Assembly (NCBI GenBank): GCA_038728085.1
Contig: JAVYUU010000003.1
Location: 1 to 64,000 of the forward strand
Source of the DNA: Candidatus Bathyarchaeia archaeon
Lineage (GTDB): Archaea > Thermoproteota > Bathyarchaeia > Bathyarchaeales > Bathycorpusculaceae
Direction of reading: 5' to 3'
DNA: 64,000 bases
The notes below the pieces were generated by a model that made no database searches, was not told where the DNA came from, and worked only from the letters and a program-made list of their open reading frames with translations. Positions 217 through 19,775 of this stretch are shown here, in pieces. The number at the start of each line of letters is the position of its first letter. Position 1 is the stretch's first letter. The translations under genes and the position numbers were made by a program.

Positions 217-1221
217 TCATGAAACTGTGAAGCTTGTTGAGTTGTATGATAGTAAGATTATTAACCCAGAGTGATAAAATGCTGTGGCGTAAGCTGTATA
301 TGTTCCTGTTTGCATATCCGCTTTCAAACGGAAAGCTATGTAGTAGCCGCTTACATTTTGTTGAGTTGTTAATGATGATATCCCCTGACTTTCTGTTGAT
401 GAAGTTATTTCAAAGGATGAGGATTTTTCTGGACAGTGGGGATAGCCTTTGTCCTGGGGTAGGTTTGTGTAGGCATTGGCGTAGATTTTTGCTGTTCCAA
501 GTGCTGCGTCGTCTGGCACTATAAACGCTGAAACGAATTCGTGGGGCCCTCCTGGAGGAACACTCTGGGTAACCCTATCCGAATATAACGGATTGCCTTC
601 TGAATCGCATATTGTATATGTTATGTTGGCATTTATGTAGTTCGACTGATCATTGTTCTTGAATCTTACCCAGATGAAGTACTGTGATCCACGTTTTACC
701 TGGTTTACTGGTCTTCCGTAATAGTCGGCTATAAAAGTGTCTATGATCTCTATCCTCCACGTATGGGGTGATGTGCCCTCTCCAAAGTGGATAGCCACAA
801 CGACCATGTCATATATGTCGACTATTCCGTCCTTATTTATGTCCGCTATTAGGTTATAGTTGAGGTCACCGTACTCAGATCCAAAGGCTACAGCAATTAT
901 AACAGCGTCAAATATGTCCACATATCCGTCCCCGTTGAGGTCGCCCTCTATTACCGACGGAAGTTCCAGCTCATATATGAAATACGTTCTGTACATTATT
1001 GCTTTACCATATGGGTTGTTCACTTGTATGCCTACTAAGCTTTTGTTTACGGGTTGACCACCAAAGAGGACTTGCCCGAATATTTTTACTGTTTCTCCTC
1101 TTGAATAGTTTTCTTTGTCTGTTTGTATGATTAACGTCAAGTCTGGAATGTATGCTAAGGTTAAGTTAGATAACAATATAACCAAAGCGAGAAGGAGGGC
1201 ATACATTATTTTTCTTAGCAA
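217..1221 (-). CDS. Secreted protein with an internal dockerin domain between Ig-like beta regions
   Basis: The protein has 334 residues. Residues 1-23 form a signal peptide. Residues 25-90 look like a beta-sandwich of the kind found in archaeal surface proteins (YSRGETVKIFGQV). Residues 93-148 form a type I dockerin with two calcium-loop repeats (DLNGDGYVDIFD and DINKDGIVDIYD). The rest is a beta-rich, N-glycosylation-sequon-rich region. There is no C-terminal anchor. The start is a TTG at 1221, preceded by GAGGAGAT at good spacing. The gene follows the cohesin gene with its own TATA-like box. Dockerins bind cohesins through calcium-dependent contacts, so the adjacent cohesin protein is the obvious partner (inference). 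An internal rather than terminal dockerin is unusual. Confidence 0.85.
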   Translation of the reverse strand: MLRKIMYALLLALVILLSNLTLAYIPDLTLIIQTDKENYSRGETVKIFGQVLFGGQPVNKSLVGIQVNNPYGKAIMYRTYFIYELELPSVIEGDLNGDGYVDIFDAVIIAVAFGSEYGDLNYNLIADINKDGIVDIYDMVVVAIHFGEGTSPHTWRIEIIDTFIADYYGRPVNQVKRGSQYFIWVRFKNNDQSNYINANITYTICDSEGNPLYSDRVTQSVPPGGPHEFVSAFIVPDDAALGTAKIYANAYTNLPQDKGYPHCPEKSSSFEITSSTESQGISSLTTQQNVSGYYIAFRLKADMQTGTYTAYATAFYHSGLIILLSYNSTSFTVS

Positions 1222-1303: not shown

Positions 1304-3100
1304 TTACTCTGGTTTGATTATGATAGTTGGTGTCGGGGTGTATGTTGGTGTTACTTGGGCTCCTCCGTTAAATGGCCAGTTTGTCAGGGCGTTAACGTAT
1401 ATAGTGGCTTTGCCGGCTGCCGCCCACTTTGGTATTTCAAGTGTGAATGTTGCAACGTATTTCTTGTATGTGCACCATGTTGTCATGTCATTTGTACCCA
1501 CTGTTGTCTTTAGGAAGTCGCTGTCGAAGGGCACGTTCAGCTCATCGTGGGCTACAACTGCTATGAGCACGCTACGTTCTTGAACAGCATAGCTTTGGTA
1601 TTCAACGGTCACCGTTATTGTTTCCCCATGGGCATATGCATCTTTATCTGTTGTGACTTTGACCCACCTTACTAGGTAGTCAAAGTGGAATTCGAGTGTA
1701 TCAGATACCACTACTTCGGCTATTTCAACCGTGGCTATTACTTTCCACACGCCAAAAAGCCTCTCTGGATTTTCGCATGGCCAGGGTATTCTAAAGGATA
1801 CGTGGGCAATCCCACTAGCGTTTGTTCTACTGCATATTATAGTTACAAGGTTTCCTTGTGGATCAAATATTTGGAAGGCTACGTCTTTCTGTTGTACTGG
1901 CCATAGGTTATAGGTCACTAGGGCGAATAGTTCTACTTGTTGTTGCGGGGTGAACATGTCACTTGGCTTGTTGAAGCCTTGGCCGCCGTAGGGAGCTGGG
2001 TACTGCGTAAATAGGTCTATGGCCCTTCCTATTACGTATCCCTCAATTTTGACTAAACCGTCCACTGGTGGTTCATATGGTACTGGCTCTGCGGCTATAT
2101 CCGCGAATTTGGTGTCATAGAGATCGAGTGGCGATGTGCCAACCCACGGCATTGCTTCTTGGCGAATCACCTCGAATTTGAGTTGGACTAGAGGTCCGTC
2201 TTTGCTTATTGGCCTATCCCATGTCGCTGGAGGGTAGCGGTGCGGCAGTAGGAGCACCGCTAAGTGAATGTAGGCTAGTCCGTCCCACCTTATGCCTTTA
2301 ACGATAGGCGTCATGTAGATGTTGCCGAGGCTGTTCAGCCAAGGATCAATGGATGCGGCCTTAAAGTCTATTAGTGTGTCGTTGTAGGCTAGTTTAAATT
2401 CTATGCCTACAATCCACCAGTCCCATGCAGCATCGTAAACATAAACTGAAACGTTGAAGAAGGCATCGATAGTCCCAACAACAGGCGCTCCTGCCGGAAT
2501 TAGGGTTGTTGAGGGCACAACTTTCAAGTAAGGCTTTATCAACGGAGGTTGCCAGACACATCTATATAGGCCATCTTCAGCCACATGAGGTATCGGTTTG
2601 GGAACCGTATCTGCAAGTTTTGTGTCGTAAAGATCTAAGACTGATGAAACCATACCATGCCATGGTGGACTTACCCTAACTTTGAAGGTTATATCGACAA
2701 GAACTCCACTACCGCTTTTTGCTGGTTCAGGAGCCAAGAGTGTGAAGCCAAGGTGCCAATATTTGTGAGTTTCGTTATAAGTCTTGATTGTCCAGACCGG
2801 AATGAACTGGTTAGCTGGGTCTAATGGTTCCATGAAGTGACCCGGAGGTCTAACGGCGCTAACACCTTCTAGGACTCTATCGTCGTAAAGTAGCTTAAAC
2901 TCGTAGGCATACATATCCTGAACGTCTGCGATCATGACTTTTACAGTGAAAGTCTCGTCTTTAGGAACACATTCAACTAGCGGTGGATCAATGTATAGTT
3001 TCGTCTGTGCTGAGGCGCTTGACATCGGTAGAATATAAAACACTGAAAACATTAGAACGGAGATCAATATAGTTGCACTAAGCTTTTTAAACCTATTCAT
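1304..3100 (-). CDS. Secreted protein with two cohesin-like domains
   Basis: From the ATG at 3100 the protein has 598 residues. I prefer this start because AAAGGAGAAGGGAGAA sits directly before it. A signal peptide covers residues 1-31. Two cohesin-type modules follow, at about 33-178 and 188-350. Each starts with a strand near a proline-rich edge, carries an EFKLLYDDRVL- or EFKLAYNDTLI-like strand, and ends in LDLYDTK(L/F)AD followed by a DGL strand, so they are clear internal repeats. Residues 351-598 are further Ig-like beta domains. No transmembrane helix, SLH domain or sorting tail is visible, so how it is held at the cell is unclear. It lies between two dockerin-bearing genes and probably binds both products (inference). 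Cohesin assignment is by sequence pattern; a fold search would settle it. Confidence 0.8.
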   Translation of the reverse strand: MNRFKKLSATILISVLMFSVFYILPMSSASAQTKLYIDPPLVECVPKDETFTVKVMIADVQDMYAYEFKLLYDDRVLEGVSAVRPPGHFMEPLDPANQFIPVWTIKTYNETHKYWHLGFTLLAPEPAKSGSGVLVDITFKVRVSPPWHGMVSSVLDLYDTKLADTVPKPIPHVAEDGLYRCVWQPPLIKPYLKVVPSTTLIPAGAPVVGTIDAFFNVSVYVYDAAWDWWIVGIEFKLAYNDTLIDFKAASIDPWLNSLGNIYMTPIVKGIRWDGLAYIHLAVLLLPHRYPPATWDRPISKDGPLVQLKFEVIRQEAMPWVGTSPLDLYDTKFADIAAEPVPYEPPVDGLVKIEGYVIGRAIDLFTQYPAPYGGQGFNKPSDMFTPQQQVELFALVTYNLWPVQQKDVAFQIFDPQGNLVTIICSRTNASGIAHVSFRIPWPCENPERLFGVWKVIATVEIAEVVVSDTLEFHFDYLVRWVKVTTDKDAYAHGETITVTVEYQSYAVQERSVLIAVVAHDELNVPFDSDFLKTTVGTNDMTTWCTYKKYVATFTLEIPKWAAAGKATIYVNALTNWPFNGGAQVTPTYTPTPTIIIKPE

Positions 3101-3299: not shown

Positions 3300-5447
3300 T
3301 TATTCTAACGCCTCGTAATCTGGCCAGCCGAAAACCAATGCTGCACTTACTAGGTCGAAAATGTCAATTATTCCGTCTCCATTTATGTCTATTGTCCTGG
3401 AGTAACCTTCCTCGCCTTCTTGTACTCCAAACACTAGAGCTATACTGACTATGTCGAAGATATCTACTTTGTCGTCTTTGTTGAGGTCTTCATCTCTGAA
3501 GTAGCGGAAGTATCCGTAGGGTGACGTTATAGGTTCAGCGTCTTTGTTGGGGTCTATTGTTATGCCAGTGTTCACTGTTGAGCCTTTCTTGTGGGCTACA
3601 AGGAGTATGTGGCTATTAGGCATATATTCAGCCAGGCGCCATGGACCGCTGGCTATTAGGTCGGGGTCTGGAGCGAATGTTGTTGGATCCCAAGGTTCCC
3701 CGCTCTTTGGAGCTGGGGCACCTGTGCATATTGGTTGCCATATGTGTTTGGGTAGGATTCTGTTGCCGCACCATCCTAGGGCGAATACGCTTTTGACACT
3801 GAAGCGTATTCTAAATGTTGTTGGAGAAATTACATCGATGCCAACCATGTTTTCGACGTTTGAAACCCACCATGGAGGTGCTAGACCTCTGGCTTTTAGG
3901 TCGTCGTCCATCTGAAGGAACGTGTATACTATGTCGTCTATTGTAACTTTTTTGCCGTCACTCCAGTAGGCGTCTCTTCTAAGGGTGAATTCGATAGCGG
4001 TTAATTCGTCTCCGGTATCGGGGTCAATCCATGTTCCAACCTTGAAAGAGTCTGCAAGCCACGGCATGAATCTCCCAAGGTCATATGGGTTTCTAGTCAC
4101 TAGCCCCTCATAACCTATCAAGTCCAGTACGGTGTTGTCCCATAACCATTCCGAGTAGACTGGATTAAATTGTCTGATGTCTGTTGTCTTAAAACCATAT
4201 GCTATCGTTCCGCCGCGGGAGACACGTGTTGGTCTTAGGTTTAGGAAGGTGAAGCCGTTGTCTACACCGTAGCCTGGTATGTTCACGAAACCTCTCCAAT
4301 ACCTGTCCGTGTATGGTGGAGTAACGGGCTTTCTAGAGACAACCTTGGCTCCGCTTGTTGAGTAGAGTGGAATGCTTAGGACATTGCTAGCGAACACTTC
4401 TTGCGCCAAGTGAGCGTAGTAGACGGCTTCTTCTATGGTATTGGCATACATTACGCCATAGCTTGCCTCATTGAAAACTGGGTCGTTGCAGCCAGCATAA
4501 TTGTATGGCCTGCCTGGATGCCAGTAATAATCCCAGTTCCATAGGATTAAGTGATCTGGATCAACGCCTAAGCTCCAACCACCCGTGTAGATGTGGAAAT
4601 CCTTGTTTGACATAACTTGAAGCCTTGCAGCGGATACATCTCCGTAAACGAGGTTAACCTTAATCTTTACAGGATCACTGGTAAGGACCCCGTATAAGTG
4701 CTCACCTGCAAGCTTTCGCGGCACGTGGTCGCTTCTAACAAAAAGTTTTAATTCAAGGTCTTCGCCCTCGTCTTTCATACCATTACGGTTCCGATCCCAG
4801 AACCTCCAACCGTCAGGGCCTATTGGGAAACCGTTAGCCTGAAGCAGGGCGGCAGCCGCACTTGGGTTGAATAGGTAACATAGCTCTTCAAGGGCCCCGC
4901 CTGGACGAATCTCTGGGTGACTGTATACACCCATTGAAGGCGGAACCGGCGTGTAAAGGGGCACAGCGAAGCCTTCTCCCACAACTTCTCTGACAACATA
5001 GTCCCTGTTCACACAATAAGCAATAGCCTTTCTCAGGTTAACATCTGCCATAGGGTTCGGGAAGACTGGGTTCGGATAAGACGCGTCGGGAGGATTGCCG
5101 AGGTATGTATTATTGTTGTTGTTTAGGTCAAATATGAACAGGCCGAACTCCGCACCGTAGCCCAGAACCTTCAATTTGCCAGACCATTCGGGACTTACAT
5201 ACTTATCATAGTGCGTTTTGTCAAGAGGCCAATCTGTTACATCTATTTCTCCGCCTTCAACACCGGTCTCCCACTCAGATATATCGCTGGCATAGAGCTT
5301 TATAAGCAGCTGATCAGCTCTTGGACCAAAAGTTTCGAATTTTTTATCATCAGGAATTGCTGGATCACCATAAGACCACGCATATACTGGTGACAACAGT
5401 AAAGCAACGAACACGACGGCCAATACTGACATAAGTTCTTTCTTCAT
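3300..5447 (-). CDS. Oligopeptide-type ABC solute-binding protein, permuted, with C-terminal dockerin
   Basis: The protein has 715 residues from the ATG at 5447, chosen for the GGGAAAAGGAGAA just before it. It has a signal peptide (cleavage near PVYA) without a lipobox or membrane anchor. The remainder is SBP_bac_5 (OppA/DppA-like), but the order is unusual. The mature N-terminus begins in the GEIDVTDWPL segment, followed by DVNLRKAIAYCVNRDYVV and the family's normal C-terminal end. Only then come the segments that normally open the family (GGTIAYGFKTTDIRQFNP, LRRDAYWSDGKKVTIDDIVY, SGPWRLAEY). Residues from about 650 to the end form a dockerin with repeats DLNKDDKVDIFD and DINGDGIIDIFD. It should deliver peptides or similar solutes to OppBCDF, encoded upstream. 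Confidence 0.88.
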   Translation of the reverse strand: MKKELMSVLAVVFVALLLSPVYAWSYGDPAIPDDKKFETFGPRADQLLIKLYASDISEWETGVEGGEIDVTDWPLDKTHYDKYVSPEWSGKLKVLGYGAEFGLFIFDLNNNNNTYLGNPPDASYPNPVFPNPMADVNLRKAIAYCVNRDYVVREVVGEGFAVPLYTPVPPSMGVYSHPEIRPGGALEELCYLFNPSAAAALLQANGFPIGPDGWRFWDRNRNGMKDEGEDLELKLFVRSDHVPRKLAGEHLYGVLTSDPVKIKVNLVYGDVSAARLQVMSNKDFHIYTGGWSLGVDPDHLILWNWDYYWHPGRPYNYAGCNDPVFNEASYGVMYANTIEEAVYYAHLAQEVFASNVLSIPLYSTSGAKVVSRKPVTPPYTDRYWRGFVNIPGYGVDNGFTFLNLRPTRVSRGGTIAYGFKTTDIRQFNPVYSEWLWDNTVLDLIGYEGLVTRNPYDLGRFMPWLADSFKVGTWIDPDTGDELTAIEFTLRRDAYWSDGKKVTIDDIVYTFLQMDDDLKARGLAPPWWVSNVENMVGIDVISPTTFRIRFSVKSVFALGWCGNRILPKHIWQPICTGAPAPKSGEPWDPTTFAPDPDLIASGPWRLAEYMPNSHILLVAHKKGSTVNTGITIDPNKDAEPITSPYGYFRYFRDEDLNKDDKVDIFDIVSIALVFGVQEGEEGYSRTIDINGDGIIDIFDLVSAALVFGWPDYEALE

Positions 5448-5557: not shown

Positions 5558-6544
5558 CTATCTAGAATAGAGGTGGCAAGCCACTTTTCGCCCTGAGACA
5601 TCAACGAGGGGTGGTTCTTTTACACGGCATATATCACCAATTATAGATGGACATCTAGTGTGAAAACGACAACCCGGAGGTGGATTTATTGGACTTGGGA
5701 TTTCTCCCTTAACACGCACCTCGATACGCTTTGAAGTAGGATCTGGAACAGGGACAGCCTCAATCAATGCTTGTGTATAAGGATGTAATGGTTTTCTAAC
5801 AACGTCTTCAACATCACCCATCTCGACAATCTTCCCCAAATACATCACTGCAAGCCTATCGCATACAGCCCTGGAAATAGCAAGGTCATGCGTTATGAAG
5901 AGAAAAGAAACTCCATACTTTCTACGTAGTTCAAGCATTAAGTTTAATATTTCGGCTCTAATCGAGACATCCAACATCGAAACGGGCTCATCAGCAACTA
6001 TAAAGTCAGGATTAAGCACTAAGGCGCGTGCAACTGCAACTCTCTGCCGTTGCCCACCACTGAGTTCATGAGGATAACGGAAGAGAAACTCTTCTGGGGG
6101 GGTTAACTTAACATCTTCTAAAACTTGATATATCCTCTCCTCAATGTTCTCATAAATCCCTTGAATTAATAGAGGTTCCTCCAAGATGCTTCTAACGATC
6201 ATTTTAGGATTTAGTGACTCGTAAGGATCTTGAAACACGATCTGCATCCTTCGCCTAAACTTTTTGAACTCACTTTCCCTCATAAAAGTTATGTCAACAC
6301 CATCAAAAATTATCTTCCCAGAAGTAGGTGTAACCAATTTTAAGATAAGCCTACCCGTAGTAGTCTTGCCACTTCCACTCTCACCGGCTAATCCAAAAAT
6401 TTCACTCCTTTTTATGTCGAAACTCACACCGTCCACAGCACGTACATAGGGTATGTTTCTAAGTACTAAGGAACGAAAGAAACCGATACTAAGTGGGAAA
6501 TATTTCTTCAAATTTTCAACAATGATAAGAGTCTCCCTACTCAC
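5558..6544 (-). CDS. oppF: Oligopeptide/dipeptide ABC importer ATPase, OppF/DppF type
   Basis: This cytoplasmic ATPase of 328 residues powers the importer. It shows Walker A GESGSGKTT, Q-loop FQDPYESLNP, signature LSGGQRQRVAVARAL, Walker B FIVADEPVSMLD and the H-loop ITHDLAIS. The C-terminal oligo_HPY extension INPPPGCRFHTRC with later cysteines is diagnostic of peptide and sugar-oligomer importers of the Opp/Dpp class. In bacterial homologues this Cys-rich tail can bind a cluster. The GTG start at 6544 follows GGAGGGT, and oppD ends 15 bases upstream, so the two are co-transcribed. Substrate cannot be read from the ATPase. No residue essential for ATP hydrolysis appears missing. Confidence 0.93.
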   Translation of the reverse strand: MSRETLIIVENLKKYFPLSIGFFRSLVLRNIPYVRAVDGVSFDIKRSEIFGLAGESGSGKTTTGRLILKLVTPTSGKIIFDGVDITFMRESEFKKFRRRMQIVFQDPYESLNPKMIVRSILEEPLLIQGIYENIEERIYQVLEDVKLTPPEEFLFRYPHELSGGQRQRVAVARALVLNPDFIVADEPVSMLDVSIRAEILNLMLELRRKYGVSFLFITHDLAISRAVCDRLAVMYLGKIVEMGDVEDVVRKPLHPYTQALIEAVPVPDPTSKRIEVRVKGEIPSPINPPPGCRFHTRCPSIIGDICRVKEPPLVDVSGRKVACHLYSR

Positions 6545-6559
6545 TACGCACCCTCCGAG

Positions 6560-7531
6560 TTAAGATATCAAATGACAACTAACGATGTGGTCCTTCTTAA
6601 CCTCGAAATAGCCTGGTTCCTTTTTACGGCAGATATCCATAGCATATTTGCAGCGCGGATGAAAAACACATCCACGTGGTGGATTTAAAAGGTCTGGAGG
6701 CTGCCCAGGTATTGAAATCAACTGAGTCCGTTCGCCCCTTATGCTCGGAAATGCACTTATTAAACCTATTGTGTAGGGATGCAGGGGGTTTTTGAAAATT
6801 TCCACGGTGTCGCCGTATTCCACAGCCTTGCCACCATACATTATAACTGTAGACTCACAAGTCTCAGCAATTATTGACAGGTCGTGAGATATTAACATCA
6901 TGCTCAAGCCAAGTTTATCTTTCAATTCCTTCAGCAATTTTAAAATTTGAGCGGTAACAATAACGTCCAAGGCAGTTGATGGTTCATCAGCTATTAAAAG
7001 CGAAGGGTTGCAGGCTAAGGCCATTGCAATCATAGCCCGTTGTTTCATGCCTCCACTAAATTCATGTGGGTAATTATCAATTCTCGAGGGAGGAATCCCA
7101 ACAAGTTCAAAGAGTTTGGAAACCCGCTCTAAAGCTTCCCTGCGATCCACGTCTTTCTCATGCAACATAATTGCTTCGACTATCTGGTCCCCCACCTTCA
7201 TCACAGGGTTTAAAGCGTTCATAGCGCCCTGAAAAACTATTGCTATACGCTTCCATCTTATCTCTTCACGAAATGTATCTTCGTCAAGAGAAACTATGTC
7301 CCTACCCTCAAACAATATTCGGCCGCCTACTATCTTGCCGCCTGGAGGCAGAATTCTTAAAATGGAAAGGGCAACCGTTGTTTTTCCACAACCAGATTCG
7401 CCAGCCAGACCTGTTGCCTTACCTTTACCTACTGAAAAGCTTACACCATCAACCGCTTTTACAAATCCTCTCATAACTTGGTAGTAAGTTTTCAAGTTTT
7501 CAACTTCAAGTAGGTTCAAATAATCATTCAC
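6560..7531 (-). CDS. oppD: Oligopeptide/dipeptide ABC importer ATPase, OppD/DppD type
   Basis: The protein has 323 residues. Motifs in order are Walker A GESGCGKTTVALSIL, the OppD-type Q-loop FQGAMNALNPV, signature FSGGMKQRAMIAMALA, Walker B LLIADEPSTALDV and the switch ISHDLS. The C-terminal oligo_HPY tail is LLNPPRGCVFHPRC plus two more Cys. It pairs with OppF as the heterodimeric motor. It is directly upstream of oppF and downstream of oppBC, separated from oppC by a small gene on the opposite strand (7592-7987), so oppDF may need its own promoter in the 60-base gap at 7532-7591. Confidence 0.93.
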   Translation of the reverse strand: MNDYLNLLEVENLKTYYQVMRGFVKAVDGVSFSVGKGKATGLAGESGCGKTTVALSILRILPPGGKIVGGRILFEGRDIVSLDEDTFREEIRWKRIAIVFQGAMNALNPVMKVGDQIVEAIMLHEKDVDRREALERVSKLFELVGIPPSRIDNYPHEFSGGMKQRAMIAMALACNPSLLIADEPSTALDVIVTAQILKLLKELKDKLGLSMMLISHDLSIIAETCESTVIMYGGKAVEYGDTVEIFKNPLHPYTIGLISAFPSIRGERTQLISIPGQPPDLLNPPRGCVFHPRCKYAMDICRKKEPGYFEVKKDHIVSCHLIS

Positions 7532-7591: not shown

Positions 7592-7987
7592 ATGGAAAAA
7601 CACTTTTACAATACAAGGGCAGACATGGAAACACTTTCCAAAGATCTAATTAATTATTTGCATAAAGAGGGATTTAATGTTAAACTTAAAAGAAATGGTG
7701 AATCAATCTATGTTATAACAGCCGAAAAGATAGTTAAAGGCAAAGTAAAACTACTTATGATAGAAATACTTAAGGACAAGGATAATAGTTTAGTCATAAA
7801 CTTTAGAAATCGACATGAGCTTAAACCGCCAACGTACAGCTCTCTGATATGGCAATTTCTTGGTGGCGGTTTTCTGCTCAAAGGAATATATGAAGACGTT
7901 GAGTTTTATCAACAAATAGAAAAAAGATTTTGGAGAATGGTTGAAGAACTGATGAGTGCTTATGGCGAATCATCTGCGCATTCTTAA
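7592..7987 (+). CDS. Hypothetical 131-residue protein inside the opp cluster, opposite strand
   Basis: I do not recognise a family. The protein is soluble and alpha/beta in pattern: an N-terminal helix (METLSKDLINYLHKEGF), alternating strands (VKLKRNGESIYVIT, KVKLLMIEIL, SLVINF) and a C-terminal amphipathic helix ending in a small Ser/Ala tail. It is Lys-rich and has no signal peptide or membrane segment. It starts at ATG 7592 about 60 bases from oppD, which is divergently transcribed. Its 3' end overlaps the 3' end of oppC by 18 bases. It interrupts the otherwise minus-strand importer cluster, so it may be a regulator or simply an insertion. Confidence 0.6.
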   Translation: MEKHFYNTRADMETLSKDLINYLHKEGFNVKLKRNGESIYVITAEKIVKGKVKLLMIEILKDKDNSLVINFRNRHELKPPTYSSLIWQFLGGGFLLKGIYEDVEFYQQIEKRFWRMVEELMSAYGESSAHS

Positions 7988-10522
7988 TTTGGGATTCAAA
8001 ACTTCGTCGAGCGCATAACCCAACAGTATAAATGCCATAGCAACTAAAGAGATTGCCAAGCCAGGGGGGATGATCCACCACCAATTCCTAGTGGCGCCAG
8101 CCTCAAAAACATCATGTAACATTCGCCCCCACGACATTCTAGTAGGATCTGAGAAACCAAGCCAGGCTAGAGCCGCTTCTGCAGTGATGGCCCCAGGCAC
8201 TGATGAAGCAAGTGAGATGTAAGCAAGTGACATTACGTTTGGTAGTATATGTCTAAATATTATGTGCCATGTTCCAGCCCCAGCGGCCCTTGCAGCTTCC
8301 ACAAAAGGTCTTTCTTTTAGCGAAAGTACTTGAGACCGCACTACCCTTGCAAATCCGTTCCATCCTAGAAGACCAAGCAAGATTATTAGGTTTTCGATTC
8401 TTGCACCTAGAACAGCGACAAGCACTATCAGTAAGGGCAATCCAGGCATTACCAGCATGAGATCGTTGATTCGCATTAATAGTTGATCTGCAGCTCCACC
8501 GACATATCCAGCGAAGAGACCAACGACTAAACCTATTGCAACAGATAATAAAGCTACAAGGATACCCACATATAACGATATTCTTGTACCATATATTAAC
8601 TGGGCAAAAAGGTCCCGCCCAAGATGATCCGTTCCCAAGATACCGAAGCTTGTACCATCTAAAAATAGGCCAAAGTTGTCTATGTAAACATTAACAACCA
8701 CATCTGTATCATAAGCAAAATTATCGATGAAAGTAATTTCAATTCCATAAATATATTTACCCGGCATACTTTTGAATAAGTTTCGCAGTGCCACAGGATC
8801 TTCAATGCTTATTAGAGTCCCAGGGTCCCAAGGGGAGGTTTTAGATAAAATCCAATCTGCAGATACATAACCTATGTAAACTTCACCCTTTTTGCCTTCA
8901 ATATCGCCGTAAAAATCTATGTAAAAACCTCTTGGAGGGGACGAAATTGATGGAATGTAATCTGGTGGAAAGATTTTTGTGAGATTTTCTAAACCAACAT
9001 CGAGCGCTCCAAAGAGAACTCTGATTTTTATTGGCACAAGGAGAACTTTTCCACCGGTAGCATCTATTGTAATGTAATTTCTCCCCAAAATATTATACAA
9101 TCTGTTTTTTGCTTCTATAGTTGTACCTGTGAGAGTTCTGAAAATACCCTTACGAAGGCTATATATAGCTACAGTCGTTGAAGGAGGAACATTTATCCTT
9201 AACTGGTAAATTTTTGGTTCTGTAACAACAACCTTCATCACTATGTAAAACCGTGCCCGCCTTACAGTTATATTCTCATAGAGCACAAGTTCATGATTCA
9301 CGACAAGTTCACCCTCGTCATGATCCCTTGTGATGTTTCTGTAGAGCACAAAATAATCAACGCCTATTTCCTTGATCTGATTGATCTCTCGAGAATCTCC
9401 ACTTCCAATGGATATGTAGTCTCCCACCTTAAATGATGAGGTATCAGCGACCTTCAGTCGGAGGTCACCTGCAAAAGCTGGATCCGTGAGAATTGTTTGC
9501 GCCGTGAACCATCTTCTAGGGTAGTATATATCAGGTCTATTGTTTTCGTCCTCAAGGTCTGGATCTGCGATATTGAGATCTTCCATAAAGCAGAAATATG
9601 GATAAATATCACCAGTGTCATCGTACATAGATGGATATGTTGCGTTACGAACTTCATCGTAAGTTTTATTAACAAGACTTCCCTCACTTACAACCCATTT
9701 CATGGCTTCCCAGTTGTTGTTTAACCATTTCCACCAATCTTTATCTGGTGAAACAAGCCAGTCCCTGACGGTTATGTTCGCCGCTGCTATGTGTATCCCC
9801 ACATAATCGTCAACACTGATCGATATATTGCCACTATACGGTTTTGGTTTCCCTTTCTCCAGCGGGGCATCAATTTGAATAACAAACCATTCTTCATCAG
9901 GGAACTTTAGACCTAGACTGCTGCCGTTAACAAGAAGATTTATGTTGCCTCTAAGCCTGGCAGGTAATCCCGAAAAAGGATAATCAAAAACACGGTAAAC
10001 ATACACTGTAGAAATTCCAGGCGGCTGACCGGATGACCTTTGATATGACACAGCTAGAGAGCCACTTAGAGGAATCAAGGGAAAACCCTCAACTTTGAAG
10101 GGATAACCAACGTTTTCATTGAAACCAACGTTCACACCAACTGTACCGTTTGCCAGAAACATCGAAGCGTTCCAAACCCCACCTTCTGCTAATGTTTTGG
10201 GAGCGCTACACTCAATGCCAATTAGGTTCAAGTTTTCGGATAAATCGGGATTGCCCCCAAGCCACGTTGGGAGGTAGCGCAACCATGTAGGGGCTGCCCG
10301 CTTTCCAGCTAATGGACCTTGGAGGTTAGGGTCCTCACCAAGGCTTGTATATGGAGTAAAAAATGGAGCAGCCAAAGCAATAAACACAAAAAAGAAAATT
10401 AAGGATAAACCCAGCAAAGCCCTTTTATTACGAATGAAAATTCTGATGAAACCTATGAACCTTTTAATATTAAAGGAAAACATAGTTTCTTTTTTCTTTG
10501 GACCCTGCATCGTATCACCCAT
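7970..10522 (-). CDS. oppC: OppC-type permease with a very large extracytoplasmic domain
   Basis: The protein has 850 residues, whereas OppC/DppC is normally near 300. The N-terminus is typical (basic region, then a helix at about 31-52, GLSLIFFFVFIALAAPFF). Residues from about 53 to 590 form an outside beta-rich insertion with many N-glycosylation sequons. After that the family resumes with LGTDHLGRDLFAQLIYGTR, five membrane helices and the ATPase-coupling EAA loop (EAARAAGAGTWHIIFRHILP). Part of the ectodomain (TDPAFAGDLRLKVADTSSF to EGELVV) is a small beta module also present in the protein at 11700-13103. Its ATG overlaps the oppB stop by 8 bases, so the genes are translationally coupled. 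The ectodomain may dock the binding protein or scaffold (inference). Confidence 0.9.
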   Translation of the reverse strand: MGDTMQGPKKKETMFSFNIKRFIGFIRIFIRNKRALLGLSLIFFFVFIALAAPFFTPYTSLGEDPNLQGPLAGKRAAPTWLRYLPTWLGGNPDLSENLNLIGIECSAPKTLAEGGVWNASMFLANGTVGVNVGFNENVGYPFKVEGFPLIPLSGSLAVSYQRSSGQPPGISTVYVYRVFDYPFSGLPARLRGNINLLVNGSSLGLKFPDEEWFVIQIDAPLEKGKPKPYSGNISISVDDYVGIHIAAANITVRDWLVSPDKDWWKWLNNNWEAMKWVVSEGSLVNKTYDEVRNATYPSMYDDTGDIYPYFCFMEDLNIADPDLEDENNRPDIYYPRRWFTAQTILTDPAFAGDLRLKVADTSSFKVGDYISIGSGDSREINQIKEIGVDYFVLYRNITRDHDEGELVVNHELVLYENITVRRARFYIVMKVVVTEPKIYQLRINVPPSTTVAIYSLRKGIFRTLTGTTIEAKNRLYNILGRNYITIDATGGKVLLVPIKIRVLFGALDVGLENLTKIFPPDYIPSISSPPRGFYIDFYGDIEGKKGEVYIGYVSADWILSKTSPWDPGTLISIEDPVALRNLFKSMPGKYIYGIEITFIDNFAYDTDVVVNVYIDNFGLFLDGTSFGILGTDHLGRDLFAQLIYGTRISLYVGILVALLSVAIGLVVGLFAGYVGGAADQLLMRINDLMLVMPGLPLLIVLVAVLGARIENLIILLGLLGWNGFARVVRSQVLSLKERPFVEAARAAGAGTWHIIFRHILPNVMSLAYISLASSVPGAITAEAALAWLGFSDPTRMSWGRMLHDVFEAGATRNWWWIIPPGLAISLVAMAFILLGYALDEVLNPKLRMRR

Positions 10523-11588
10523 ATTTTATGCGAGGATCAATTATACCATACAATATGTCGGCAATTATATTGGCGATGATAACACATAGGGAAATTAGAT
10601 AAAAAATCGCCATAAGAACTGTGTAGTCCCGGATGTTTATAGCTGTCCAGATCCAACCACCTAAGCCTGGGTAGGAAAACACAGTCTCAGTTATTATTGC
10701 CCCGGAGAGAATAAAGCCAAAACTTAAAGCTGCACTCGTTATTATTGGTAAGCTTGCGTTTTTAAGAGCATGTTTGTACAAGATTGTGTTTTCTTTAAGG
10801 CCTTTAGCCCTTGCAGTTATAATATAATCTTCCGTTATGGTTTCAAGCATGGTCGCTCTTGTTAACAACAACCATCCTCCAAACGAGAAGATCGTTAATG
10901 TTGTCAAGGGAAGGATTAAATGTCGGACGTATCCAGAGATCAGTTCTAATGCCTCTTCGAAGTTTAAAGATATGTAATATACTACAGAATTTTTATCATA
11001 GAGGGCATTCATTAAGACTGGACGGGGCCATCCAACATTGGGCAGGGCCCATTCTACTGGAAACGCCCTTGCACCAGGAAGCCAATTTAAAGTGCTAACA
11101 AAAATCCACAACAAAACTAACCCTATCCAAAAGGTTGGCAAGGAGTTGGTAATTAAAGCAGTTATCACCGAAAAGGTATCAAATAATCCTCCCCGCTTCT
11201 TTATTACGGCTATGCCCCAAAAGATTCCGATTATCATAGAAACTACAGTCGAAAGACCAAGCAATAAAACAGTGTACGGAATTTTTTGTGCCAAAACTTC
11301 AGATATTGGTCTTCTCCCTGCAATTTCAATACCGAAATTAAACGAAAGTAGGTTTCTTATATATTTCACAAGTTGAACCTCGATTGGATCGTTTAACCCC
11401 CATAGGTCTCTTAAAGCCTGCTCATGTGCTTTACGAGCTTCAGGACTTTCTTTGGACCATGCAGCCATCAGAAAATCCGTTGGGTCACCGGGCATTCTCA
11501 TAAATATGATAAAGTTGACGCATATAACCGCCAGTATTAGTATAAATGAATACACTATGCGCTTCATTATGAATTTCCTAAGGCCCAT
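10515..11588 (-). CDS. oppB: Oligopeptide ABC importer permease, OppB/DppB type
   Basis: The protein has 357 residues and about six membrane helices. The N-terminus (MKRIVYSFILILAVICVNFIIF followed by MPGDPTD) is characteristic of OppB/DppB. The inner-face coupling loop is ITARAKGLKENTILYKHALKN, and the conserved end is ETVFSYPGLGGW followed by RIKYG. It forms the substrate channel with OppC. It is the first gene of the minus-strand importer set, starting about 110 bases from a divergent gene, so the operon promoter should lie at 11589-11699. Confidence 0.93.
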   Translation of the reverse strand: MGLRKFIMKRIVYSFILILAVICVNFIIFMRMPGDPTDFLMAAWSKESPEARKAHEQALRDLWGLNDPIEVQLVKYIRNLLSFNFGIEIAGRRPISEVLAQKIPYTVLLLGLSTVVSMIIGIFWGIAVIKKRGGLFDTFSVITALITNSLPTFWIGLVLLWIFVSTLNWLPGARAFPVEWALPNVGWPRPVLMNALYDKNSVVYYISLNFEEALELISGYVRHLILPLTTLTIFSFGGWLLLTRATMLETITEDYIITARAKGLKENTILYKHALKNASLPIITSAALSFGFILSGAIITETVFSYPGLGGWIWTAINIRDYTVLMAIFYLISLCVIIANIIADILYGIIDPRIKYG

Positions 11589-11699: not shown

Positions 11700-13103
11700 G
11701 TGGCTTCATTTAAAAACTTGAGCACCACTCAAGTATTAATTTTCGCAGGGTCAATATTAATGATCGTAAATGGATTTTTGATCTTTCTGAACGGTAAACC
11801 GATAATCATTCAGACATATGACGCAAATACTTTGAACGATATATGGCCCAATGCACCTAAGCCATCTGGGAAATTTTGGGGAAGAATTATTCTTGGAATA
11901 CCAGGTATGGTAGAAGATGGGTTATCAATTTTTTGGATTTTTTGGGCAGTTGTGGTTTTTGCTATTTCTATCCTGATTTTCTTAAAGCCAATCAGACAAA
12001 AAAAGGCCGCTCCGCTAATTTTGATGTGCTCATTATTTACCATCCCAATAGGAGCAGGATTCATAGTCGGCATATTTTTAGTGATAATAGCATGTCTTGC
12101 AGCGTTTGAATGGCCTAAGCATTACAAAGAAACATTTATCGGAACTGTTTTGATGACTCTAAAACTTAATTCAAGGGTTTTCTCAACGTTAGGAGGAAAA
12201 TTTGATGCAAGAAAAGCTGTCCTAATTCTATTTCTTGTTTCCATTTTAAGCAGTATAGGAAGCACAATCTATAGCTATAATGTAAGCAAAATATATCCCC
12301 AACCAAGCACAACCATAGCTACAGACGCAAAAACCGGGGATACACGAATATACGTAACGAATGTAACGGGCTTTAAAAGTGGAGATACAATTGTAATAGG
12401 AACAAGAGATTGGAAAGAGTTTAAACAAATAAGCCTTGTGGGAGCGAGCTACTTTAACTTGACATTACCTTTAGAATACGATCATAAAAAAGGAGAACCA
12501 GTCGTCTCGTTGTACTCTAAATCTTTTGATGCCACTAAGGCTTATGAGATTTTACTTGTTGGAAAATTATACATTGACCTAGGGATACTTTTTATTAACA
12601 CGTTAGGATACATCACAGTATTAGTTCTAAAATGGTTGATACTTACAATCTTGGTTTATATCATGTGCTCAAAATTATTAGACTCGCAAAACTCTTTTCA
12701 TTCAATGGCAATGGCGACATCACTGGTTTTTGTCCCGGAGATTTTAAATGTCTGCTTGCCAATGATGTTTTGTAATGAACCAATGCTTTCGACGGGCCAG
12801 ATTCTGGTATTTCTCCCAATCTCGTGGCCTCTTCTAGTTTTTTATATATCACGTCTATGGGGATTTTTACTGTTAACCTCATTGGTAATAGGGATCACGG
12901 AATTCGAAAAAACAAAAGCCTTTGGTACGGCACTTGTCATATCTTGCATTTACTTTGTAATAGTTTATATTATAATGACCCCGTTGACAAGTGCTTTTGG
13001 AATAGGCATCGTATTAACAGAGGAATCATATAAGACTGCTATGCTGCTCGTAGCGATAGGAATAATTCTATCTTGGTTTTTAGGGGCTTTCAAGAAGACT
13101 TAG
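11700..13103 (+). CDS. Multi-pass membrane protein with an extracytoplasmic beta module shared with OppC
   Basis: The protein has 467 residues and starts with GTG. A membrane helix lies at about 12-30, two more at about 75-135, then one at about 160-190. A soluble insertion follows at about 200-275 and a C-terminal bundle of about five helices at 290-460. The C-terminal bundle resembles Yip1-like small-molecule or trafficking membrane domains, but I cannot assign it firmly. The insertion (TDAKTGDTRIYVTNVTGF to KKGEPVV) aligns closely with a stretch of the OppC ectodomain encoded in this same locus. It is divergently transcribed from oppB. The shared module suggests that both contact the same surface partner, or that the module was copied within the locus. 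Confidence 0.7.
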   Translation: MASFKNLSTTQVLIFAGSILMIVNGFLIFLNGKPIIIQTYDANTLNDIWPNAPKPSGKFWGRIILGIPGMVEDGLSIFWIFWAVVVFAISILIFLKPIRQKKAAPLILMCSLFTIPIGAGFIVGIFLVIIACLAAFEWPKHYKETFIGTVLMTLKLNSRVFSTLGGKFDARKAVLILFLVSILSSIGSTIYSYNVSKIYPQPSTTIATDAKTGDTRIYVTNVTGFKSGDTIVIGTRDWKEFKQISLVGASYFNLTLPLEYDHKKGEPVVSLYSKSFDATKAYEILLVGKLYIDLGILFINTLGYITVLVLKWLILTILVYIMCSKLLDSQNSFHSMAMATSLVFVPEILNVCLPMMFCNEPMLSTGQILVFLPISWPLLVFYISRLWGFLLLTSLVIGITEFEKTKAFGTALVISCIYFVIVYIIMTPLTSAFGIGIVLTEESYKTAMLLVAIGIILSWFLGAFKKT

Positions 13104-13467: not shown

Positions 13468-15510
13468 TTATCTTGAGTTATTCTCTTTTCTAGACTGAAC
13501 GGATTTAGATAGGTGTGCCCTATACGACATGTTCAGCGTATATAGTGTCAGTGCAACAATTCTTTTTAAGCCCCTGGAACTGCTGTAATTTTTAATGTTA
13601 AGAAAGCCCAAAATCTTTCTTTTTATCAAAAAGATTAAAGTTAAGGTGAGGAGGAGGTAGCATGATGGCGCGAGACTTTCAAATTTAAATTCTGAAATCA
13701 CGTGAATGAGGATGTTCTGCATCTTAAAACTGCCATTGAATGTGACATAAAGGTACATAAATTGTTCATCTTCTAATCTGAAAACTTTTGATATGTTTGC
13801 TCCATCGACAAGTATTGCTAATTCATATTTATAGCTGTTATTTAGCACCCTCTTGGGAATTATGATCTTACAAAAGTTGGACGCATCAAGATTACTTTTA
13901 ACTGTAAGATTAAAAAGTACACCATATGTGAAGTCACAATGAAAGAATAATACTATAGAGTTACTAATGATATTTATGTAATGGAGGGTTCCATCCAGCA
14001 CTAGTTTAAAGCTCATTAAAGGGGCTGCAAGCGGGTAATTATCAGTATTTTTACAACTTTCTTCCACAATAAAGGGTTTGTCACATATACCGTCACTTCC
14101 AACCATGTCTTGCATAGCACCATTATAGAAATCCACTAACTCGGGATTTGTGTCCCAGTAATTTCCGCCAACGGGGTACCCATTATCCCACATATTGATA
14201 CATTCAGAATGGCAAATGACTTGAACGTTGTTTTTAACAAAATTGTTATGATAGAAACAGTTTCCATTTGCGTTTTCGATTTTGACAGCTGCTTGTTTAC
14301 TAAAACGTAAATTGTTGCCTTCAAACATGTTCGTATTCGAGTATACTAAGTAAATTGCAAGCGAATTATTTTCGAAGAAGTTATAACGAAACACGTTGCA
14401 TGTTGCATTATCTAAAAAAAGACCATAAATATTTTCAACAATTATGTTGCTTTCAACAATGTTAAATTTGGATGTAAGGGTTTGTTCACGAGATATGTAT
14501 GTTCCAACAGAAAAGTACAAGCCATATCTATTATTATAAATAGTGTTTGAAGAGATGCTATTGTTTGTTGAAGCAATAAGCGAGAAACCAGACCACTGAT
14601 TTGACTCAACCACGTTATTGCTGATGACATTTTTATGAGAAGACAGTAAATAAATACCACGCTCATTTTCTATAAAGGTAGAATTTGATATTATACAATT
14701 ATTTGTATACACTAGAAGAACACCAGCAAAGTTATTTTTAATGTTAACGTCGCGAACAACGATATTAGAACAATTAACTAAGCCAACGAACCCCACGTCT
14801 CCAGCGATCACCCTATCTTGTTGATCAACTAAGTAGTAGACTGACTTTCCATCAACCTTGTTTGTTTCATCAATATTATGTCTAAAATGTGATAGGGGGG
14901 ATCCCCATATCCTAATGTTTATCATATTCTTAATCATAATGTTTGACCTTAGAGTATTATTGGTGGAATCATAAATGTGAATCCCAATGTCATTTCTCAT
15001 GACCAAGTTGTTTTCTAACAAGTTGTTGGAGGAATAACGCAGATATATTCCATTCCTGTGATTGACTATCACATTATCCCTAACAACAACACAGTTTGAT
15101 CTAAATACATAAATTCCATCAGATGCTGGTAATGAGGTATTAACAATAAAGCCTGACACGACAACATTATTAGCAATTATCTTTATGCTAACTTGGCCGT
15201 TAACGTTAAATAATATGGTCTTATTGACGACACCTATCAAGTACACAGTTTTTTTAATCGTCAAGTACTCATAGTAGATGCCCTCATCAACATAAATGAT
15301 GGTACCCTCCACAGCGTTCTCGATGGCTTCCTGTATTTTACTGTAATTTCCAGGCACGTATAAAACAGGATGTGAATTGAATGTTGAGCTTGTCTGCGGT
15401 ATGTTGGATACATACTGATGAATTGGTACGTTAAGACACGCAGGAATAAAAATTTGAAAGAGCAGAAAAGCTGCAACTTTTTTGAATAAGCAACAGTTAT
15501 AGATTATCAC
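13468..15510 (-). CDS. NosD-like right-handed beta-helix surface protein
   Basis: The protein has 680 residues. A signal peptide lies at about 8-28, followed by the NosD entry motif PGNYSKIQEAIENAVEGT. Then come about 15 parallel beta-helix coils with N-rich turns (NNLLENNLVMRNDIGIHIYDS). The pectate-lyase-like cap has the recurring feature GGNYWDTNP...GSDGICDKPF. A C-terminal beta domain carries the FCKIIIPK signature found in many archaeal surface proteins, and one membrane helix (CYLLLTLTLIFLI) with a basic tail anchors it outside. NosD/CASH domains bind or cleave carbohydrate in some families and help copper-enzyme maturation in NosD itself; no nosZ is nearby, so a surface or glycan role is likelier. 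It is a paralogue of 16966-19557. Confidence 0.8.
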   Translation of the reverse strand: MIIYNCCLFKKVAAFLLFQIFIPACLNVPIHQYVSNIPQTSSTFNSHPVLYVPGNYSKIQEAIENAVEGTIIYVDEGIYYEYLTIKKTVYLIGVVNKTILFNVNGQVSIKIIANNVVVSGFIVNTSLPASDGIYVFRSNCVVVRDNVIVNHRNGIYLRYSSNNLLENNLVMRNDIGIHIYDSTNNTLRSNIMIKNMINIRIWGSPLSHFRHNIDETNKVDGKSVYYLVDQQDRVIAGDVGFVGLVNCSNIVVRDVNIKNNFAGVLLVYTNNCIISNSTFIENERGIYLLSSHKNVISNNVVESNQWSGFSLIASTNNSISSNTIYNNRYGLYFSVGTYISREQTLTSKFNIVESNIIVENIYGLFLDNATCNVFRYNFFENNSLAIYLVYSNTNMFEGNNLRFSKQAAVKIENANGNCFYHNNFVKNNVQVICHSECINMWDNGYPVGGNYWDTNPELVDFYNGAMQDMVGSDGICDKPFIVEESCKNTDNYPLAAPLMSFKLVLDGTLHYINIISNSIVLFFHCDFTYGVLFNLTVKSNLDASNFCKIIIPKRVLNNSYKYELAILVDGANISKVFRLEDEQFMYLYVTFNGSFKMQNILIHVISEFKFESLAPSCYLLLTLTLIFLIKRKILGFLNIKNYSSSRGLKRIVALTLYTLNMSYRAHLSKSVQSRKENNSR

Positions 15511-16375: not shown

Positions 16376-17091
16376 ATGCGGTGGGAGGTTTGCGCCTCCA
16401 GATCATTGGATCGGCATTGATTGTAATATCGGCAATTTTAAGCGCACTTACAATTATTAATCTTGCGGTTTATGAAAGGGTTGAAGACTTTGCGTCGCTG
16501 GCTGAAGATCCAAATGTTAAGATTATGGATATGATTGTTTACGTCCCACCCTTTAATAGAACCCGTGAAGAAGCGCAAAGGCTCGGGAAGAATTGGGGAT
16601 GGGTGGGTTTTAACATATCCTTACCACATGAGAAGATGTTAGGTTATCAAGCGTATGGCATTATCATTTCGATGAATCCAGACGTAAAAGCGGATATAGT
16701 CATGGGGGTAGTTAACGAAACCGGCCTGGAACTGCTGGTCTTTGATGGTTTTTCCGACGCTGCATGGAATGCTTCAAAAGTCTATGCAGCAGCATCTCTA
16801 AATGAAAATAGGCAATACCAGAAATTTTGGTTTAGCGACCTCGATGGAGCTTCCAAGTACTGTGTACTATTTAGGGGGCGAAAAAATGCAGCAGAAGATT
16901 TTCCAATTCTAATATCGATAAAAGAATCTTGGTACGAGAGAAAAGTTTTATTCCCTTTTACAAACTCAAATGTGATAATCATAATTATTATCCTTATAAC
17001 CGGGGCAAGTCTCATAATATTCAGCAGTGGAGGGAAAAGGAGATCGAGGTTTAAGACGCGAAGAGTAAAATACCCGCAGAAAAATTGTTAA
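16372..17091 (+). CDS. Second double-anchored membrane protein of the pair
   Basis: The preferred start is the ATG at 16372, which overlaps the upstream stop as ATGA; a TTG nine bases earlier is an alternative. The protein has about 239 residues: a helix at about 10-30, an outside domain with sequons and a GWVGFNISLPHEKMLGYQ strand region, a helix near 200-220 (VIIIIIILITGASLIIF), and a strongly basic tail (KRRSRFKTRR). Architecture matches the preceding gene, so they may be distant paralogues. The last 126 bases overlap the 3' end of the NosD-like gene on the other strand, so both C-terminal membrane helices are encoded by the same DNA in opposite directions. Confidence 0.6.
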   Translation: MNAVGGLRLQIIGSALIVISAILSALTIINLAVYERVEDFASLAEDPNVKIMDMIVYVPPFNRTREEAQRLGKNWGWVGFNISLPHEKMLGYQAYGIIISMNPDVKADIVMGVVNETGLELLVFDGFSDAAWNASKVYAAASLNENRQYQKFWFSDLDGASKYCVLFRGRKNAAEDFPILISIKESWYERKVLFPFTNSNVIIIIIILITGASLIIFSSGGKRRSRFKTRRVKYPQKNC

Positions 17092-19557
17092 CCAGATGAG
17101 TGTTAGCGAAAGAGCACTTAGATTCTCAGAAATAGCGCCTTCACCGATAACTGAAATTTTATTAAATCCTTGATAAATTCTCAAGTAGACGTAAGTATAT
17201 TCATTATCTTCGAATATTGTATAGTTTGTTTGTTCGTCATTGAGAAGTACTTGCCAATCACCATTGCTCCATAATAGTAGCTTTGGGATCATTATTCGAC
17301 AAGCAGTTTCACAGATTTCCAATGCAACAAATAAACGTAACATTGCATCATGTGGAAAGAAAGAAAGACTAAGCGACGCAACACCAGATAACGAAATTGT
17401 GATGGACGAGTTGAAGTTTTCCAAACGAATTACTATTACGGGATTAACTAGTGGATATCGATCTAAATCGTCGTTGATAGGAAGTGACGTATCAAAAATC
17501 CCATCACTACCGAGTTCGTTTTGTCGTTCACCCATGTAATAATCCGAACTATTATGCCAACTCCAGAAATTCCCGCCCTTCGGATATCCAGAATCCCAAA
17601 AATTCTTTGAGTTGTACACGTAGTATCTTTTTTCTCCAACAAAATTGTTATGATAAAAAAAGTTGCCACTTGAGTTATGGATATAAAAGTGGGAAATATT
17701 TGAAATAATATTGCTTCTTAGAACTTTATTATTATGAGAGTTAACAAGAAATAGACCATGCCAGTTTGATGTTAGTTCCACATTATCAATTAATGTAAAA
17801 TTAGTGAAAGCGAGCAATATTCCTTGAAAGTTATTTTTGATGTTTACTCTCTCGATCGAAACGTTTGTTGAGTTTACAACGGCAATGAAACCAACATTGC
17901 CTTGTATTCTACCACCGTTTTTTGAGACCCAGTAGTATACTTGGGCCCCATCAACCGTATTTGAAAGGTCAAACTCATTAACGAAATCATTAAGATAACG
18001 CCCATACACCCCTACGCTCCATAGGTTATTACACAAGGTATTGTTAGCCAGCGTGTTTCCGCCGGAATACCATAACATTATCCCAAACTTATTTTTTAGT
18101 AAGTTATTATTTAAAACAACATTGCCGTAAGAGCCCCAAAGTTTGAGGGCAATTTCATTTACGGCCAAATCGTTATATTTTATGACGTTTACACATGAAT
18201 GATTTAAATAAATTCCATAAGGTCCTGTTTCTGAGATTGAATTGGAAATCAAGTTATTGTTGCAAGACTGGTTTAGGACTATCCCCTCACAGACATATGA
18301 AATGTTATTCGCTGATACTGTGCTTTGGCTCGTTTTATCAAAATATATTCCATACGCCGGATTGTTTTTTATTATGTTTTTAAATAAAAGCATATTTGTA
18401 CAACTATAAACGGTCACAGCTTGTCCATAGTTCCAAACAAGACAATTGTGCGTGAAATTTATATACTTCGAGGATTCAAACCATACAGCCAAGTTATTAT
18501 TTTCCATGAAATTGTTACAAATTACAGAAAGACTACAATTTTTGAAGAATACTCCATAGTGACTTGACCTTATTATGTTGGAAGCTATTGTAATATTAAC
18601 CAAGTTCTCGGCACGAATCGCCGCCATTCCATAACCGCTACCCTGGATCGTTAGGTTGATCAATGCCACATTAGGTGCACATATTCTAAATACGTCGCCC
18701 ACTTTAGAGCCATCTATTATGGTTTTATTGAATTCTCCCAGCAGAGTAACGCTTTTGTTTACTATTACATTTTCATAGTAAATTCCCGCGGGTATTCTGA
18801 GCACCGTTCCGGGCAACGCTTCATTAATCATCTGTTGTACAGAAACATTACCATTAGCACAATAAGCTTTTGGCAGTTGGGTTAATGTAGGTGTACACGC
18901 AAGTATGTATAACAATAATGATAGAGTTACTGTGGTAGTTATAGATTCTATCTTCACTACAGAGCTTTTAAGTTCGCGTAAAACCTCGACCAGGTTATTT
19001 AAATAAATTCGAATGATTACTACAATAATGAACCCTATCACGGCACCAACAATCGAACCATAAAAATCTCCGATTGTAAATCCAGCTATGCCGGAAAAGA
19101 TTACCAGGTAAAATTCTCTGAAAACAGTAGCTTCAACAGGTAGAATAATCAGCAAGATAAGTAACGCGTTAGTCCACAAACCACGCACTACAAGCGACAT
19201 TACATACGTATCGTAACGATCACTTTCTTTCAGGCCCCATATAGGTCCCCCGAATTCCCCAGAATGATAAGATTCTGGAAGGTACTTAATGGAGACATTA
19301 CCCTTGATAACACCTATCCCTTTAAGCCAGTAACTTGGAAACAAGATTGGATTGAAAACTATGTCTACATAAAAAACTACATCTGCATAGCCAAATTGAT
19401 TGTATGGAGTGAAATAAACTTCATCAATTGCCTTGACTTTGTATCCAACATTTTGAAATAAGCTTAGAATAATCAAGAACAGAGTTATTCCAAGAGCAAA
19501 AAGTAACCTTCTAACTACTTTTACTTTAGCATACATAGGTCGGTCGATGCTTTCCAA
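16966..19557 (-). CDS. NosD-like beta-helix protein with N-terminal membrane domain
   Basis: The protein has about 863 residues from a TTG at 19557 (AGGTG six bases upstream); a GTG at 19566 is the alternative. Residues 1-240 hold about four membrane helices with a short outside loop, an arrangement I do not recognise. The beta-helix then begins with NVSVQQMINEALPGTVLRIP and continues with many N-rich coils to the GGNFWSWHNSSDYYMG...GSDGIFD cap. A C-terminal beta domain with CRIMIPK and a final helix with a basic tail follow. It is a paralogue of the 13468-15510 product in everything but the N-terminal membrane domain. The role is probably at the outer surface; the substrate is unknown. Confidence 0.75.
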   Translation of the reverse strand: MESIDRPMYAKVKVVRRLLFALGITLFLIILSLFQNVGYKVKAIDEVYFTPYNQFGYADVVFYVDIVFNPILFPSYWLKGIGVIKGNVSIKYLPESYHSGEFGGPIWGLKESDRYDTYVMSLVVRGLWTNALLILLIILPVEATVFREFYLVIFSGIAGFTIGDFYGSIVGAVIGFIIVVIIRIYLNNLVEVLRELKSSVVKIESITTTVTLSLLLYILACTPTLTQLPKAYCANGNVSVQQMINEALPGTVLRIPAGIYYENVIVNKSVTLLGEFNKTIIDGSKVGDVFRICAPNVALINLTIQGSGYGMAAIRAENLVNITIASNIIRSSHYGVFFKNCSLSVICNNFMENNNLAVWFESSKYINFTHNCLVWNYGQAVTVYSCTNMLLFKNIIKNNPAYGIYFDKTSQSTVSANNISYVCEGIVLNQSCNNNLISNSISETGPYGIYLNHSCVNVIKYNDLAVNEIALKLWGSYGNVVLNNNLLKNKFGIMLWYSGGNTLANNTLCNNLWSVGVYGRYLNDFVNEFDLSNTVDGAQVYYWVSKNGGRIQGNVGFIAVVNSTNVSIERVNIKNNFQGILLAFTNFTLIDNVELTSNWHGLFLVNSHNNKVLRSNIISNISHFYIHNSSGNFFYHNNFVGEKRYYVYNSKNFWDSGYPKGGNFWSWHNSSDYYMGERQNELGSDGIFDTSLPINDDLDRYPLVNPVIVIRLENFNSSITISLSGVASLSLSFFPHDAMLRLFVALEICETACRIMIPKLLLWSNGDWQVLLNDEQTNYTIFEDNEYTYVYLRIYQGFNKISVIGEGAISENLSALSLTLIWLTIFLRVFYSSRLKPRSPFPSTAEYYETCPGYKDNNYDYHI

Positions 19558-19775
19558 AAGTAACACCTAAAATTTAGAAGCCAAAAATCTACTTAAGTTT
19601 TAATACGATTTTAATAACTGTCAATATCGCCGCAAGGACCATTCATATGGTTTCTTGAGTTTGGGGCCAGTTATTTCGTTTTAAATTATGGAGTCTTTAT
19701 TTATTTCTGTATTCGAGACTCAAATGAGATTGATGTGTCCTCATTTTGAGGTAAGAACGGAGGCATCGAACAAAG

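Follow-up and report, generated by a model that had tools for sequence, protein, structure and literature searches.

The locus

The window (64,000 nucleotides, positions 1 to 64,000 of contig JAVYUU010000003.1 of a Bathyarchaeia archaeon) carries a gene for a substrate-binding protein (SBP) of family 5 (SBP_bac_5, PF00496) with a dockerin. The gene opens with ATG at 5447, closes with a stop codon at 3300–3302 and encodes 715 aa (coding span 3303–5447, minus strand). Coordinates of the features are given in Table 1.

Table 1. Genes and protein segments at the locus, in window coordinates.
Feature	Position	Strand	Evidence
Permuted SBP_bac_5 gene with dockerin, 715 aa	3300..5447	-	ORF, Pfam, in silico rotation
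Signal peptide, residues 1–24 (boundary estimated)	5376..5447	-	Hydrophobic N-terminus read in sequence; tmN 2.40
Residues 25–406, PF00496 148–361 and C-terminal extension, now first	4230..5375	-	Pfam; local HMM 249–531
Residues 407–650, original N-terminal part (PF00496 2–138), now second	3498..4229	-	Pfam; local HMM 48–242
C-terminal dockerin, about residues 651–707, two DxNxDxxVDIFD repeats	3327..3497	-	Pfam 17.4 bits; 5k39_B
Secreted cohesin-domain protein, likely type of dockerin partner	1304..3100	-	PF00963, 38 bits, above cut-off
Secreted dockerin protein	217..1221	-	PF00404, 27.3 bits, above cut-off
oppF-type ABC ATPase	5558..6544	-	Translation read; synteny in L003
oppD-type ABC ATPase	6560..7531	-	Translation read; synteny in L003
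oppC-type permease, 850 aa, ~590-residue insert between OppC_N and BPD_transp_1	7970..10522	-	Pfam
oppB-type permease	10515..11588	-	Translation read

The oppBCDF genes lie upstream of the SBP gene on the same strand, an arrangement kept in L003, a relative at 74% identity. Downstream follow the secreted cohesin gene and the secreted dockerin gene, and then the contig ends. The genome, a multi-contig draft 97.7% complete, contains one PF00496 protein, that of 715 aa. Amino-acid divergence between the permuted SBP and L003 is low (dN 0.20, against a saturated dS of 4.2).

In the oppC-type permease OppC_N occupies 25–70 and BPD_transp_1 664–847; the insert between them, present also in L003 OppC (840 aa), forms a large domain, probably extracellular, within the permease. 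A stretch of ~60 residues in the insert (GD-R-V-F-GD-I-IG ... DH-GE-VV) has a similar counterpart in the neighbouring membrane protein at 11700–13103. Two large secreted proteins resembling NosD-type beta-helix repeat proteins are encoded near the transporter operon, at 13468–15510 and 16966–19566.

Segment order

PF00496 matches the protein with 131 bits (E 7.8e-38; curated cut-off 32.4 bits), split over two stretches. Residues 44–306 correspond to profile 148–361; profile 2–138 is matched only further along the chain. In the genome search the pieces lie at G000:C3:4530-5318 and 3588-4070, both on the minus strand and each alone above the cut-off. When the sequence is cut in silico at 406/407 and the halves are exchanged, a single stretch results, profile 2–361, with 131.9 bits; every family segment is present once, in an order that is not collinear. 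Against a full-length HMM of 551 positions, built locally from 13 collinear members of the same class, the chain matches positions 249–531 first and 48–242 second. Profile–profile comparison of 18 type A proteins (defined below) with collinear proteins, mostly archaeal, aligns profile 15–320 to template 227–517 and 337–537 to 35–227. These pieces are complementary, meet at template column 227 and score 369 and 302. After rotation the set aligns in one run over 505 columns, and the score, 698, is near the sum of the two.

AppA (1xoc) is aligned to the permuted protein in two parts, 19–209 and 212–508, with a nearly gapless junction. Since the pieces abut in this way, nothing is missing or duplicated, and the circular permutation is genuine. 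AppA and DppA (1dpe) share the same segments, nearly the whole length being covered in two pieces, but are collinear; OppA (1b05), a collinear family 5 homologue among the solved structures, likewise differs in segment order. Among the best 60 of 112 solved homologues nearly all give two matched stretches and none has the permuted order, the coordinates of the best stretch all fitting the normal one. AF2, with an input of four sequences only (the window protein and L003–L005), gave pLDDT 34. Judged from its sequence, the chain is a single complete PF00496 family domain with relocated ends.

The original prediction had the middle of the family first, its C-terminal end next and its N-terminal part last, which is the order found (PF00496 148–361, then 2–138, and one stretch, 2–361, after rotation). 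The alignment to PF00496 allowing permutation, which it proposed, returned two complementary pieces that became one full-length match once rotated. A full-length collinear alignment, named beforehand as contrary evidence, was not obtained in natural order with Pfam, solved homologues or profile–profile comparison; two separate domains, also named, are excluded insofar as each family position occurs once and the rotated alignment extends over 505 columns. Boundaries required correction. The mature protein, predicted to open at GEIDVTDW, opens ~40 residues earlier (AWSYGDPAIPDDKKFETFGPRADQLLIKLYASD), and the family-start segments do come second but begin near residue 407, not only after 430. The dockerin predicted for the new end is recognisable by two Ca-loop repeats, but its Pfam score falls short of the cut-off.

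Dockerin, cohesins and anchoring

The dockerin contains two Ca-binding loop-helix repeats, visible by eye as DLNKDDKVDIFD and DINGDGIIDIFD. It scores 17.4 bits against a PF00404 cut-off of 22.9 bits, which the homologue L004 passes with 27.8, and matches dockerin 5k39_B (E 1.5e-4). The 715-aa protein is without a membrane anchor of its own.

Contig C4 opens within a protein carrying three cohesins and a dockerin; the next gene encodes a short protein with a C-terminal hydrophobic helix, similar to the cohesin protein at L003:16286-16948. In L003 the genes are uninterrupted and run in the order oppBCDF, SBP-dockerin, cohesin, dockerin, 3 x cohesin-dockerin, and cohesin with a C-terminal helix. 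By synteny with L003, contigs C3 and C4 would adjoin. The cohesin cluster lies at L003:14333-18555 and G000:C4:1-2480 and may represent a small archaeal cohesin-dockerin surface system; one of its proteins combines three cohesins with a dockerin, and others bear a membrane helix at the C-terminus. The dockerin and the adjacent cohesin genes suggest a docked tether for the permuted SBP.

Where the C-terminal end is intact, 50 of 54 type A proteins are anchored there, 31 by a helix and 19 by a dockerin (some by a loose motif). On the same basis a helix is present in 27 of 33 type B proteins, and 7 of 26 collinear proteins are anchored at that end. In raw counts C-terminal tethering separates permuted from collinear proteins (77/89 versus 7/26, Fisher 1.5e-8), a link that is not significant once kinship is allowed for, there being just 3–4 independent evolutionary contrasts. 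L088-like, type C and L031 permuted proteins have an N-terminal hydrophobic anchor and none at the C-terminus; collinear neighbours of the L088-like and type C proteins are likewise N-terminally anchored. At the new C-terminus, a membrane helix (in a type A subset, a dockerin) is carried by most type A relatives of the 715-aa protein and by most type B proteins of the main clade.

Distribution and independent origins

Permutation types were told apart by the break on the 551-position HMM: type A at ~245/248, type B at ~386/390, type C at ~290. Type A is also found in many Bathyarchaeia proteins at 26–74% identity. In a sample of 397 genomes from the phylum, at least 68 have it, with at least 78 matches that each cover 80% or more of the type A profile in natural order. 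The order, to be sought in homologues according to the original prediction, is thereby common to far more genomes than a single sequence could reveal. Two of the families with type A have archaeal amoA in the members tested, i.e. are ammonia-oxidising archaea; the type A profile is the main ground for assigning them, because Pfam alone detects the first piece only. It occurs also in family f38, with genomes of 1.8–3.0 Mb, most of them one contig. Type B gives near-full-length matches in 28 genomes of the phylum sample. Bacterial controls (plasmid SBPs) are collinear in 4 of 4 checked among the matches listed, that with the lowest E-value included.

The type C proteins L066 and L067 (G111:C130, G115:C70) have a chain that ends at the break and an N-terminal hydrophobic anchor. 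In L082 a ~60-position HMM overlap was considered as a duplication remnant and rejected, being mostly a spurious extension into the tail; ~10 residues are left.

A tree of 90 sequences, rotated or collinear, was built by a quick method and has long branches. A single branch (SH-aLRT 97) sets type A apart from all the rest. The B-type L088 and type C are sisters in a supported group nested among collinear proteins. L031, L161 and L057 have a B-type break, yet lie outside the main B clade on the tree. Break points were assigned before the tree was built, and the clade tests, framed after it was seen, reject B and C held as one clade (AU p 8e-9) and do not reject type B minus L088 as a single clade, L031, L161 and L057 included (p 0.356). 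Because a single clade of B and C is rejected, this tree calls for no fewer than three independent permutations in the phylum, one each for A, main B and the L088/C group.

Proposed function and alternatives

Very probably the adjacent Opp-type peptide importer uses this protein as its working receptor. This role follows from the protein's being the sole PF00496 member of the genome and from its position after oppBCDF, and is aided by the low amino-acid divergence noted above. The preferred reading as a whole, with good likelihood, is a circularly permuted substrate-binding receptor of that importer, normal in fold and tethered by its dockerin. Near residue 407 a short linker would connect the old C-terminus to the old N-terminus, and the turn corresponding to AppA residues 209–212 would have been opened to give the new ends. 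The chain would fold as a normal two-lobed SBP and be secreted; the dockerin would then tether it to cohesin proteins at the cell surface, products of the neighbouring genes, some of which have a membrane helix at the C-terminus. Because the new C-terminus carries the dockerin, permutation would make the tether leave the receptor at a new place.

Alternatively, a partial duplication with complementary loss might have left tandem half-domains, whose pairing between molecules would make a domain-swapped dimer instead of one permuted fold. In sequence the two pieces can be separated, and the ~10-residue overlap kept by L082 at the break is what a duplication-truncation route leads one to expect; but each family position occurs once, the pieces abut and the linker joining them is short, and such an origin is improbable. 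About as little weight is given to a protein that is no longer a transport receptor but has a sensory or surface role, docked into an assembly of cohesins. Its dockerin and the several cohesin genes after the SBP gene accord with that role, against which stand its position downstream of oppBCDF as the only PF00496 protein of the genome and the plain C-terminal membrane helix that most relatives have instead. An artefact of assembly or annotation could be suspected of a window from a multi-contig draft genome, but the frame is single and uninterrupted, and the same order recurs in many unrelated genomes, several of them single-contig; these homologues refute an artefact, and its probability is negligible.

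As a circularly permuted receptor, the protein belongs to a phylum-wide pattern. Permutation would shift the tether's exit point on the receptor. It is tentatively proposed, at a probability well short of even, that Thermoproteota family 5 SBPs were permuted repeatedly because the tethered terminus thereby moves to a new receptor surface.

Comparison with known systems and significance

Among the papers found, and to our knowledge, the one clear precedent for a naturally permuted binding protein comes from a different SBP cluster; SBP_bac_5 itself belongs to cluster C. The precedent, TpMglB-2 (Tp0684), was proposed as a 'Type Ic / Cluster Bc' SBP that is naturally permuted and still binds its ligand, and its authors propose tethering as the reason for the permutation (PMC4990184). 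Both are naturally permuted binding proteins linked to ABC transporters, TpMglB-2 being tethered and the present protein probably so. TpMglB-2, however, is bacterial, a cluster B glucose-binding protein of another fold class and with another break, whereas the present protein is archaeal and of family 5 (PF00496), in which a single phylum shows three break positions; Pfam assigns it to SBP_bac_5 and to no sugar-binding SBP family, contrary to membership of the glucose/galactose-binding cluster B.

Dockerins on archaeal OppA/NikA-type SBPs are already known: ANME archaea have NikA/OppA binding proteins with dockerin, and cohesin scaffold-like proteins in the genome (PMC9012536). They resemble the present case in both respects; the part of that source dealing with them gives domain content and does not mention segment order. 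No report of circular permutation in family 5 SBPs was found in the open-licence literature, nor any of the three orders among the solved homologues listed, and the orders of types A, B and C are apparently undescribed so far in the family.

An abundant nutrient-uptake family has three rotated orders and the normal one within a single phylum, ammonia oxidisers included. Three rotated orders beside the normal one constitute a natural experiment on the effects of permutation on a two-lobed receptor and on the constraints of tethering. In annotation, 'two SBP_bac_5 domains' in archaea may represent one permuted domain. If the proposed role of the tether is true, permutation would be a selectable way to set how receptor and transporter meet where the receptor is surface-bound and there is no outer membrane.
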